Assembly: GCA_902762305.1 (NCBI GenBank)
Contig: CACWNW010000004.1
Span: 1 to 64,000, forward strand
Reading direction: 5' to 3'
Origin: Fibrobacter succinogenes
GTDB taxonomy: Bacteria; Fibrobacterota; Fibrobacteria; Fibrobacterales; Fibrobacteraceae
Length of the DNA: 64,000 bases
The notes beneath the pieces were generated by a model, which was not told the origin of the DNA, did no database searches, and saw nothing but the letters and a program-made list of their open reading frames with translations. The position numbers and the translations under genes are program-made. Every line of letters starts with the position of its first letter. Positions within the stretch are counted from its first letter, which is position 1. This document shows positions 40,954 to 44,645 of this stretch, in pieces.

Positions 40954-41478
40954 CTAAGGCTTAATTGTTATCGGTGTTCCATCTTTGACGGCGTTGTAGA
41001 TTTCTTCGATTTCGTCGTTCGTGACGGCGATGCAGCCGGCTGTCCAGTCTTTCCACCTGTGCCAGAATTTAAAGAGGAATGCAGGGACCTTGTTCGGGTA
41101 GCCGTGGATCATGATGTCGCCGCCGGGCTCGTAGTTGCCTTCTTTCGCGGCCTTGATTTGCTCTGCGTTCGGGTACGAAACCTTCAGCGACAAATGAAAA
41201 ATGCTTTTGGGGTTGTGACGTTCGATGGTGTACTCACCTTCGGGCGTCTTGTTGTCACCGGACTTGACCTTCGCTCCCACGGGATTCTTGCCAAGCGAAA
41301 TCCTGTACGTCTTGACGACGTTCTCGCCGTTGCGCAAGTGCATTTGGCGTTTCGCCTTTTCTACGAGGATGTTGTCAATGGGTGAGGTGTGCATGGCTTT
41401 GGGGGTTTCCTTTTCCGATGAGCAAGAGAACAAAAGAAATGTTAGTAAAAGTAGGAGTGTTGTTCGATTGATTGTCAT
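40954..41478 (-). CDS. L,D-transpeptidase (YkuD) lipoprotein, copy 1
   Basis: 174 residues. Signal peptide with lipobox LLFSC, then a compact YkuD catalytic domain. The catalytic His lies in DIMIHGYPN and the Cys in WTAGCIAVTNDE. It would cross-link peptidoglycan or attach proteins to it, from the inner face of the outer membrane or the periplasm. A nearly identical catalytic domain is encoded at 44205-44645. Upstream the minus strand has CTATATTCG as a possible -10 region and abuts copy B of the 190-bp module. Confidence 0.88.
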   Translation of the reverse strand: MTINRTTLLLLLTFLLFSCSSEKETPKAMHTSPIDNILVEKAKRQMHLRNGENVVKTYRISLGKNPVGAKVKSGDNKTPEGEYTIERHNPKSIFHLSLKVSYPNAEQIKAAKEGNYEPGGDIMIHGYPNKVPAFLFKFWHRWKDWTAGCIAVTNDEIEEIYNAVKDGTPITIKP

Positions 41479-41525: not shown

Positions 41526-41722
41526 TAGGGGAGGGGTAAGTATTCCCACCACCTAAAGGTGGCCATGTACACTAAGGCCTAAAGGCCAAGTGTCCAAAGG
41601 TCGCTGCTGCCTTGGCTTCATCGTCATCCTGAGGCGTGAAACGGCGAAGGATCCAGACCCGCGTTATTCAGCCAAGTCTTCCGCTACCCTTTCGCCTAGG
41701 GCTCCGCCCTAAAACCCGAAAT
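41526..41722. repeat. 190-bp composite intergenic module, copy B
   Basis: Second copy of 37025-37220, including the GTCATCCTGAGG element (41623-41659) and ending in the palindromic repeat copy 5 (41694-41720), which runs into the stop of the pseudogene. Confidence 0.9.
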
Positions 41723-42117
41723 CAGGAGTCGATTGATGCGCACTGTTCAGTTTTACCCCTGAACCAGAAAATCGCCTTGAAAGCAATAAAATGATAAATG
41801 GCGATGATGAATACAAAATAAACAGAATCATTATAAAGAAAAGTGTCCCTGAGCAAATAATTCTGAACCCAAAGGGGATGGTGGCTATCCGCTTTGCTGT
41901 ACCGGTGCTTAGACATCTCTTGAAAAGGAATTAATTCATCAGACTCAAAGGGATGACAAGCAGTACAGCAAATGGAGGATAGATTAATATTAGGCCTCCG
42001 TTTCCTACGTGCAAGTGTTCGACAAATACAAAATAACTTGCTACGGGAATGATTGGCATGTGCATGCAAAAAAAGCATCCAACCAAGTATGTGCTTGGCC
42101 TTTAGGTTGTTCGTCAA
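41722..42117 (-). pseudogene. Decayed tandem copy of the adjacent small membrane protein gene
   Basis: The start (TNNLKAKHILGWMLF) and end (FIAFKAIFWFRGKTEQ) match the neighbour gene at 42114-42551. A run of seven T residues after GGATGC, where the neighbour has six, shifts the frame. In the restored frame TTA (Leu) has become TAA inside the IPLSLLNL segment. The C-terminal match is again in the original frame, so a second compensating indel is present. At least two independent lesions make this a true pseudogene rather than a sequencing slip. Confidence 0.8.
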
Positions 42118-42551
42118 AAGCCTCCTTTATAAGATCTACTTTCATTTTGTTCAATTATATTTCTGAACCAGTAAATTCCCTTGATTGCTATAAAAGAATG
42201 AATGGCTGTAGTTGCCAATATGATGAAAGCCTCGAAACCATCAACAAAAGCCGAAAAACCGCATAAGAAAAGAATTCCAGAACAAACAATGCTGAATCCA
42301 GGGGGAATGGTTGCAATCCGTTTGGCTGCATTGACACTTAGATTTCTCATGAAAAGGAATAAATTCAGCAGACTCAAGGGGATGCCGAGCAGTCCTGCAT
42401 ATGCAATGAGGAAAAGCATTAGGACTAGGAAGTCTTCGTGTGTGTCCGTATGCGCCCAAGTCCAGCAAAATGTACCTGCTACGGGAATGAGTGGTATGAA
42501 CATGCAAAAAAGCATCCAACCAAGTATGTGTTTGACCTTTAGATTGTTCAT
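42114..42551 (-). CDS. Small four-helix membrane protein
   Basis: 145 residues, start after AAGGAGG. Four hydrophobic segments (LGWMLFCMFIPLIPVAG, LVLMLFLIAYAGLLGIPLSL, IVCSGILFLCGFSAFV, IILATTAIHSFIAIKGI). No family recognised. It was duplicated in tandem and the downstream copy is dead (41722-42117). The duplicated block includes the ribosome binding site. Confidence 0.7.
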   Translation of the reverse strand: MNNLKVKHILGWMLFCMFIPLIPVAGTFCWTWAHTDTHEDFLVLMLFLIAYAGLLGIPLSLLNLFLFMRNLSVNAAKRIATIPPGFSIVCSGILFLCGFSAFVDGFEAFIILATTAIHSFIAIKGIYWFRNIIEQNESRSYKGGF

Positions 42552-42895
42552 CAAAAGCCTCCTTTATGAGATCTACTTTTTGAATATACCTTTATTTATG
42601 CGAATTCGCATTACAGCAAAAGCCTTGGGTTTTAACCTGAATGCTTTTGAAAAGGGGGGTAGATGGCTCCGCCCTAAAACCCGATGTCATTCTGGAGAGA
42701 AACACTCTTTTTTTAGTATGCGAGGTCCGCGGTCGCAGCTCGCACGAAAAAAAGGACCGTCGGTCGCGACTTCACTGCGTTTGCGCTACCCTCCGGATTT
42801 TTTTCTTAGCGCCTGTGCCCGCTTCCCTCGGAATATGATAAAAGAGACGCAGGACTTGCTCCAGTCACTGCGTTCCCTCCGCAAGCCGAGATGTA
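42552..42895. other. Repeat-bearing region without a gene
   Basis: Holds a possible TATATTC -10 region for the gene at 42551 (minus), a degenerate symmetric hairpin (42617-42650), the palindromic repeat copy 6 (42664-42694, GGCTCCGCCCTAAAACCCGA), and a further 200 bp with no protein-like frame. This is the only repeat copy not next to a stop codon, suggesting a gene was lost here. Confidence 0.55.
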
Positions 42896-42924
42896 TTAAC
42901 ATTTTGTAATATACAAAATGTTAA
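42896..42924. repeat. 29-bp perfect palindrome at the 3' end of the ATPase gene
   Basis: TTAACATTTTGTA, 3-bp spacer, TACAAAATGTTAA. Its last three bases are the TAA stop codon of the ATPase gene on the minus strand. Identical to 44058-44086. Confidence 0.95.
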
Positions 42925-44045
42925 ATGGATTCCATCCAGCGACTGAGAAATACATTGTAAACGGAGTAGTTCTTGCCTTCGAGAGAAAGTGTTTCTAGCA
43001 GGAGTTCTTTCTCGATTAATGATGTGAGTACGCGTTTTACAGCGGCGCTGGTTCCTAATTTGTATTTGTTGATGAAATTACCTGCAGTCGGTTGCGACAC
43101 CGTTCCTTCTTTGGCAACTGCTTTCAGAAATAACCATTGCTTGTCGGTAAGTAAGTTGCGGCGTTCCAGGAATCCGTTTACGTTTTCGTTCAAAATCTCG
43201 GAACAGGCTTGACGAACTTCATTTATGGTGATATCCTTGCTTCCATTGCGGAAAATTCGGTGGCAAAGATATTGGACGTAAAAGGTGTGGCACCGAGTCC
43301 ATTCTAAAATAAAGTTGACAGATTCATCATCGATACGCCGTTTATCCATGCCGAAAAGCTTCTTGATGAAGGCTGCGTAGGTTTCGAGTTTGATTTTGTC
43401 AAGATAGACGATGTGCGTGCTTTCGTAGAAAGGGCTTTTTTCGTTTACGAACATATCTGCCATAACGTGCTTCTGGCTACCGCAAAAGACGAAGCGGACG
43501 TTTTTTAAAGGCTGCATATACGTTCGCAACAGGGCTTCCATGTTTACGCCCTTGAAATTCCGGATAATTTGGAACTCATCAAAGGCGATGATAAAGTGCT
43601 TTTTTTGGCTTCCTAGAAAATCAAAAATATTTTTTAATGTGGTTTGTTTCTGACCGTCATTTTGATATGTGATACTTACTTGTGGTGCTCCGGAGATCGG
43701 ATCGTAAGAAACAAGGGGACGAATTCCGCTCAAAGTTGAAAAGAATTTTTTGATGATGGATTCGGTCTTTGTGCTTGCCAAGATTGCTTCTGATAAAAGC
43801 TTGATGAATCCTTCGAGACTGTCTGCTGCGTAAATATCGCAGTAGCATAGCGTGATGGATGGGCGTGTACGGGCGATTTTGTCGAAGACATGGTAAATCA
43901 GTCCTGTTTTCCCATAGCGTCGAGGAGAAATCAACGTGACGTTGACTCCGTTCAGTAAATCGTCAATGATTTCCTTTGTTTCTTTTTCGCGGTCGCAAAA
44001 AAGTTCTGCATTTTTGTATGGTTGCAAGACAAATGGATTTTCCAT
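42921..44045 (-). CDS. AAA/STAND-type ATPase (archaeal-ATPase-like family)
   Basis: 374 residues. Walker A is SPRRYGKTG (Lys46), Walker B HFIIAFDEFQ, and GSQKHVMADMF follows as the sensor region. The C-terminal 110 residues look like a winged helix (LLTDKQWLFLKAVAKEG, RVLTSLIEKELLL). This is the ATPase_2/COG1672-like group of the MNS/STAND class, widespread orphan ATPases of unknown role, with links to mobile or defence DNA. The promoter TTGACT-N17-TATATT (44098-44070) has its -10 box at the centre of the palindrome at 44058-44086, so the gene is probably autoregulated. ATG after CGGAGGCG. Both ends of the gene carry the same palindrome. Confidence 0.85.
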   Translation of the reverse strand: MENPFVLQPYKNAELFCDREKETKEIIDDLLNGVNVTLISPRRYGKTGLIYHVFDKIARTRPSITLCYCDIYAADSLEGFIKLLSEAILASTKTESIIKKFFSTLSGIRPLVSYDPISGAPQVSITYQNDGQKQTTLKNIFDFLGSQKKHFIIAFDEFQIIRNFKGVNMEALLRTYMQPLKNVRFVFCGSQKHVMADMFVNEKSPFYESTHIVYLDKIKLETYAAFIKKLFGMDKRRIDDESVNFILEWTRCHTFYVQYLCHRIFRNGSKDITINEVRQACSEILNENVNGFLERRNLLTDKQWLFLKAVAKEGTVSQPTAGNFINKYKLGTSAAVKRVLTSLIEKELLLETLSLEGKNYSVYNVFLSRWMESI

Positions 44046-44057
44046 AAACGCCTCCGT

Positions 44058-44098
44058 TTAACATTTTGTAATATACAAAATGTTAAATAGATAGTCAA
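44058..44098 (-). promoter_or_regulatory. ATPase promoter with 29-bp palindromic operator
   Basis: Minus strand: TTGACT (44098-44093), 17 bp, TATATT (44075-44070). The -10 box sits in the middle of the perfect palindrome 44058-44086 (TTAACATTTTGTA arms), 12 bp upstream of the start codon. Confidence 0.8.
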
Positions 44099-44204: not shown

Positions 44205-44645
44205 CTAAGGCTTGATGGTTATCGGCGTGCCATCTTTGACGGCGTCGTAAATTTCTTCGATTTCGTCGTTCGTGACGGCGATGCAGCCGGCAGTCCAGTC
44301 CTTCCACCTGTGCCAAAATTTAAAGAGAAATGCGGGAACCTTGTTCGGGTAGCCGTGGATCATGATATCGCCGCCGGGTTCGTAGTTGCCTTCTTTCGCG
44401 GCCTGTATCTGCTCCGCATTCGGGTACGAAATTCGGAGCGATAAGTGAAAGACGCTTTTGGGGTTGTGAAGCACGATGGTGTACTCACCTTCGGGTGTCT
44501 TGTTGTCACCGGACTTGACCTTCGCTCCGACCGGATTCTTGCCCAAAGAAATTCTGTACGTCTTGACAACTGTCTCGCCGTTGCGCAAGTGCATTTGGCG
44601 CTTCGCTTTTTCTACGAGAATGTTGTCGATGGGTGAGGTAAGCAT
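44205..44645 (-). CDS. L,D-transpeptidase (YkuD), copy 2, without signal peptide
   Basis: 146 residues. The catalytic domain is nearly identical to copy 1 (same HGYPN and WTAGCIAVTNDE). The first 28-30 residues that form the signal peptide and lipobox in copy 1 are missing: homology starts at TSPIDNILVEKAK and upstream DNA is instead the TTTTTATTTAAATTTCAC leader and symmetric hairpin. Without export it should be inactive in peptidoglycan cross-linking, so I read it as a truncated duplicate. Alternative: a cytosolic product expressed by chance. Confidence 0.75.
   Translation of the reverse strand: MLTSPIDNILVEKAKRQMHLRNGETVVKTYRISLGKNPVGAKVKSGDNKTPEGEYTIVLHNPKSVFHLSLRISYPNAEQIQAAKEGNYEPGGDIMIHGYPNKVPAFLFKFWHRWKDWTAGCIAVTNDEIEEIYDAVKDGTPITIKP

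Follow-up and report, generated by a model that had tools for sequence, protein, structure and literature searches.

The window analysed here is a 64,000-nucleotide stretch of Fibrobacter succinogenes DNA. It contains an ATPase gene on the minus strand, and both ends of this gene carry the same palindromic array. The features of the locus, all on the minus strand, are as follows:

42896..42924, minus strand: 3' array over the stop codon, with two units (42899-42907 and 42913-42921) identical to those of the promoter array
42921..44045, minus strand: PF01637 (ATPase_2) ATPase of 374 aa, AAA+ domain and C-terminal winged helix-turn-helix (ORF, Pfam, AlphaFold2/Foldseek)
43011..43049, minus strand: codons of the predicted winged-helix recognition helix, residues 333-345 (model and covariation of 334-337)
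43569..43595, minus strand: Walker B region, ending in DEFQ (D156, E157, F158 and Q159 invariant in the alignment)
43899..43928, minus strand: Walker A, SPRRYGKTGL (R42, G45, K46 and L49 invariant in alignment A1)
44051..44055, minus strand: Shine-Dalgarno-like GGAGG (direct sequence reading)
44058..44086, minus strand: promoter array of two dyad units with a 14-bp period, its centre overlapped by the -10; the units, in plus-strand letters, are ACATTTTGT (44061-44069) and ACAAAATGT (44075-44083)
44070..44075, minus strand: -10-like hexamer TATATT within the promoter array (promoter prediction)
44093..44098, minus strand: -35-like hexamer TTGACT (promoter prediction)

The original prediction described two identical 29-bp palindromes, and TTAACATTTTGTAATATACAAAATGTTAA is indeed found exactly at 42896-42924 and at 44058-44086. 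The two copies match even in the asymmetric 3-bp centre and so form direct repeats at a distance of 1162 bp. The chance expectation for this sequence is 0 (100 dinucleotide shuffles, 3 mismatches allowed), and the window pair is all that a search of the 3.6-Mb genome returns when up to 3 mismatches are permitted. A looser two-unit pattern, ACAWWWTGT-N5-ACAWWWTGT with at most one mismatch, gives the same two sites and no others in this genome. The 29-mer is no more than a pair of ACA-type units with a 14-bp period. The proposed promoter was also recovered, with TTGACT, a 17-bp spacer and TATATT at 44098..44070 on the minus strand and TATATT lying inside the palindrome. A dyad operator-like site overlaps the ATPase gene's own promoter, which is the arrangement of an autoregulator. 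The other copy, which had been said to supply the stop codon without a promoter around it, does contain the ATPase TAA, and there is no promoter-like match at that position. We also considered this 3' array as the promoter of the downstream gene and rejected it, the neighbour being co-directional or convergent with no promoter predicted.

The surroundings of the gene contain other repeats. Two copies of an L,D-transpeptidase gene (YkuD), at 40954-41478 and 44205-44645, flank the ATPase region and are about 90% identical over 450 bp; the second copy is without a lipoprotein-like signal peptide. Two tandem small membrane-protein-like genes (41722-42117 and 42114-42554) share 75% nucleotide identity, and the one that was scanned has no Pfam match. 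Genome G006 has three YkuD copies, two of which enclose a HipBA-like pair, so the region looks like a duplication or insertion hotspot. In G014, G070, G082 and G083 (loci L033, L114, L117 and L118) the palindrome stands just upstream of YkuD with no intact ATPase there, and in these genomes it may have been co-opted.

The predicted protein passes the Pfam gathering cut-off for PF01637 (37.8 against 33.2 bits). Its AlphaFold2 model (pLDDT 92) has an AAA+ core and a C-terminal winged helix, in which predicted secondary structure places the putative recognition helix at 333-345 and the wing at 349-362. Foldseek ranks 2qen (PABY2304) and 2fna (SSO1545) first and then Cdc6/Orc1 on origin DNA (2qby), and the sequence matches to SSO1545 and PABY2304 are 9.8e-8 and 3.2e-6, respectively. 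STAND NTPases are marked by an hhGRExE motif before Walker A and a GxP motif after the ATPase core. The ATPase has FCDREKE at 16-22, a loose fit to the first, and at the position of the second a degenerate CHT, which is GHP in homolog L027. The label STAND-like given to it earlier is fair, with SSO1545 and PABY2304 as the nearest solved folds, followed by Cdc6/Orc1. No family among the PADLOC anti-phage defence models was matched, and the PHROG matches are of unknown function. Plasmid and phage homologs are of low identity only, and in the two plasmid records examined the homolog lies among ordinary chromosomal-type genes. The viral contigs that we searched contain 7 distant ATPase relatives and 0 exact matches to the palindrome. 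Another PF01637 ATPase, with a 518-aa frame, is encoded elsewhere in the window's genome (L229, G000:C38:3603-4244).

The operator-like array extends far beyond this one gene. We collected 143 homologs, about 57 from the phylum of the window and the rest mostly from Bacteroidota, which gave 87 non-redundant upstream regions. In these, the sequence before the start codon has a 14-bp period (z 24.9, with lag 28 at z 12.2 and no other lag above 4); the period was first spotted by eye in the same data, and the independent comparison is with 343 control genes taken from these loci, of which 4.1% passed the array threshold, against 76% of 86 non-redundant ATPase genes. In the Fibrobacter and Bacteroidota homologs that passed, the arrays consist of two to four short dyad units at a strict 14-bp period just upstream of the start codon, the array centre lying at a median of 42 bp before it. 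The units are short dyads whose centres are rich in A and T, with ACATTTTGT in the window and CGCATTTTGCG, CCTATTTTAGG, ACTTTTAGT and others in other homologs. Each ATPase lineage has a private unit sequence of its own, and the 14-bp spacing is constant. At 25-30% identity, the distant homologs have repeats that are arranged differently; for example, L024, L025 and L066-L071 have upstream clusters of GGTACAC/GTGTACC at a different spacing, perhaps another operator grammar. A motif that varies at a constant 14-bp spacing looks like a self-recognition code, judging from the sequences, and not like a mobile cassette. Our search of the open-access literature, with subscription papers outside its range, found no description of such arrays.

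The original prediction had also offered a minimal mobile cassette. It would be a one-gene element with the palindromes as recombining ends, moved by the ATPase or by a recombinase of the host or element. We searched 80 genomes of the genus, of which 11 have the ATPase at 78-100% amino acid identity, and all 11 have the array at both ends. A 25-bp core, AACATTTTGTATATTACAAAATGTT, is invariant in both copies in each of them, despite the roughly 26% difference in ORF DNA between the two ATPase clades. The clades lie at unrelated loci: in seven genomes (91-100%) the gene neighbours an L,D-transpeptidase, beside leuD where the contig reaches, and in four (78-79%) it lies between lysA and a beta-lactamase-like gene. 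Such a distribution favours movement, as do close relatives whose flanks are about 92-95% identical and which have no ATPase gene, the end of downstream homology between G000 and G018 at the palindrome edge, and the solo palindromes that gene loss leaves behind. The comparison of filled and empty sites, however, puts the boundaries elsewhere. At the lysA site, G066 and G084 have 138-175 bp of unrelated filler in place of the gene, and the four filled genomes share about 20 bp beyond the 3' palindrome and about 25 bp, including the -35, beyond the promoter palindrome. The boundaries of the stretch that was gained or lost therefore do not coincide with the palindromes. This comparison shows no target duplication, no recombinase was matched by Pfam among the neighbours scanned, the unit being a single ATPase gene, and the 80 genomes have one copy of each ATPase subfamily and no multiple near-identical copies. 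Nor is the palindrome always a border of this ATPase family, because the genus search found it without the ATPase in about 16 genomes. Several of these are clear loss scars: those of G008, G013 and G087 keep the promoter, the Shine-Dalgarno sequence and the first codons, and that of G098 keeps the last codons and the 3' flank of the window. Since the scars retain gene pieces, loss was not precise; precise excision between the palindromes was likewise rejected, as the outer flanks are not joined. A copy at both ends is also not general among relatives, for G088, G070 and G010 (74-75% and 69% identity) have the promoter array alone, with three or two units. In addition, a 5'-truncated ATPase in G030 (L058) is fused directly to its promoter palindrome and is a decaying copy. 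On these comparisons the palindromes do not act like transposon ends, and we regard the cassette as distinctly improbable. The ATPase gene is an accessory gene all the same, one that is often lost and whose locus changes over evolutionary time.

The protein that reads the arrays is suggested by their covariation with the ATPase. A unit finder made for this analysis was used to call the operator arm classes ACA, GCA and CTA, and about 340 protein columns were ranked by mutual information with arm class, in three-class tests at redundancy cut-offs of 70-80%. Column 334 ranks first, and 335, 336, 337 and 330 are within the top eight; the wing columns 356/357 also rank high. All 12 GCA operators go with S334 and with S or T at 335, and all four CTA operators with N335. 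ACA operators go mostly with A334 or S334, and residue 335 is varied there, with A, V, L, I, M and T as the main residues. When the covarying columns are left out of tree building, arm class changes seven times on the tree, and the independent pairs are concordant in direction (for against counter, 4.6/0 at 335, 5.2/0.1 at 337 and 2.7/0 for N335), but with median p of 0.06-0.25 there are too few pairs to reach p<0.05. We infer that the ATPase's own winged helix probably reads the array.

This covariation bears on two other explanations. The first is that a different regulator, whose gene lies elsewhere, binds at the palindromes and has the ATPase as a mere target. Solo palindromes that persist without a cognate ATPase would suit such a regulator. 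For example, in L034, L045, L086 and L095 (G036, G020, G079 and G022) the same palindrome, with TAC at its centre, covers the stop codon of a putative WYL-domain-like gene; it is missing from most other genomes with that gene, and in G022 the downstream context diverges just past it. However, the motif tracks the ATPase lineage, and best its own recognition helix, the window's genome has sites at the ATPase only, and the ATPase paralogs within G006 each have a different motif. We therefore give a regulator from elsewhere little credence. The second explanation places the function in RNA, taking the 3' palindrome to be an mRNA hairpin that terminates transcription or stabilises the 3' end, and the promoter copy to be a coincidence. 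The 29-mer can fold as a 12-bp hairpin of -10.5 kcal/mol, but it has no U tract and no terminator-like signal is predicted at 42896-42924. The promoter copy contains the -10 and so is not transcribed whole, and the tandem units of the homologs, with their fixed 14-bp DNA spacing, covary with a DNA-recognition helix. An RNA element is extremely unlikely.

The second array, at the stop codon, is not peculiar to the window. In eight lineages (clade A, G011, G006:C23, L145, L151, L166, L167 and L171) the gene's own private array lies no more than about 25 nt from the stop codon, with a sequence that differs per lineage. The both-ends trait changes eight times on the tree. Of own upstream and downstream pairs, 8/85 score at least 15, six of which are arrays and two (L214 and L195) other repeats, against 1/251 mismatched pairs; L166 and L171 were left out of this test for their redundant upstreams. 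The direct repeats that flank the ATPase genes of L214 and L195, TTTCTTGCGAAGCAATCA for example, have no relation to the 14-bp array. Recurrence in separate lineages argues for a function of the stop-codon array. A 3' array is absent from most homologs, so that the family can do without the second site. The two arrays are 1162 bp apart in the window, or 83 x 14, and 1190 bp apart in L167, or 85 x 14. A filament register was nevertheless rejected, because the distance is not a multiple of 14 in the six other lineages. Across lineages the spacing has no constant phase, whether modulo 14 or helical, which makes a flexible bridge or a roadblock likelier than a filament; neither a rigid bridge nor a continuous filament is favoured by these spacings.

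Taken together, we consider it likely that the gene encodes an autoregulatory Orc1/Cdc6-like ATPase that acts through its C-terminal winged helix on its own 14-bp operator arrays, with the 3' array as a second site. An AAA+ ATPase of the SSO1545/PABY2304 type would bind dyad units every 14 bp. Because each lineage has a private unit and, in the window's genome, the sites are at its own gene only, the protein would be mainly self-regulating. With the -10 lying inside the promoter array, ATPase bound there should keep RNA polymerase out and so autorepress the gene. The stop-codon array would be a second binding site of the same ATPase. Its most likely role, we infer, is that one ATPase oligomer holds both gene ends in a bridge of about 1.16 kb, which would tighten repression; alternatively, it could block read-through. 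The cognate stop-codon arrays in eight lineages make bridging of the two ends a plausible possibility. Thus the original prediction stands in part: the private arrays, the helix covariation and the eight lineages agree with a regulator that would bind its gene at either end, with looping as a conditional step, and the mobile cassette is not supported.

Two further readings retain the pairing of array and ATPase. In one, which we think rather unlikely, array, ATPase and array form a self-contained unit, in which the Orc1/Cdc6-like ATPase works on the two arrays that flank it. Such a unit would be a private replicator or a module for DNA bridging or segregation, and diverged codes would keep paralogs in one cell orthogonal. 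The other is a private Orc/Cdc6-like replicator, the array and ATPase being a dormant or former origin-initiator pair. The fold is similar to Cdc6/Orc1 on origin DNA, iteron-like arrays adjoin the gene, and there is a parallel in origins adjacent to haloarchaeal orc/cdc6 genes (PMC3528665). However, the NCBIfam ORC1 match is weak (NF001623, 21.1 against a cut-off of 311 bits) and TIGR02928 is also missed (12.8 against 181.3), so that no ORC1/Cdc6 family model reaches its cut-off. The arrays are within the promoter and not beside a separate unwinding element, and the genes are chromosomal and often lost, the plasmid-record homologs examined lying among chromosomal-type genes. A replicator is very unlikely.

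Self-regulation through private arrays would give PF01637-type ATPases, which are widespread and of unknown function, a first functional handle, in the form of an operator grammar whose 14-bp spacing is constant and whose unit sequence varies and covaries with the ATPase. This grammar predicts the DNA site of each protein from gene-adjacent sequence, names specificity residues and offers orthogonal regulator-operator pairs. The archaeal PF01637 proteins SSO1545 (2FNA) and PABY2304 (2QEN) share the AAA+ domain and C-terminal winged helix with the ATPase of the window. We know of no operator or cognate DNA repeat for either, and unlike them, as they are known, the bacterial family has phased private arrays. 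Autorepressors such as LexA, TetR and HTH regulators generally have a dyad operator over the -10 of their own promoter. The likeness is that a dyad operator encloses the promoter of the putative regulator's own gene; in contrast, the candidate binder here is AAA+/STAND-like, the operator consists of tandem units at a 14-bp period and is present once more at the stop codon. Another relevant protein is IniR, a mycobacterial signal-transduction ATPase of 818 aa and a DNA-binding regulator, which has MalT-like and SdiA-like domains and an ATPase domain predicted to be SSO1545-like, and which binds the iniBAC promoter (PMC5760070). That paper does not describe IniR as a protein that binds its own gene at both ends. 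Haloarchaeal orc/cdc6 genes are linked to specific ORB elements, mostly upstream and occasionally on both sides of the gene, and resemble the present case in that an Orc-like ATPase adjoins repeats specific to itself (PMC3528665). Those repeats are replication origins (PMC3528665), whereas the arrays here overlap the gene's promoter and the ORC1 cut-off is missed. In bacteria, the arrays and their ATPases would thus parallel the way in which haloarchaeal Orc/Cdc6 proteins are privately paired with their own boxes.
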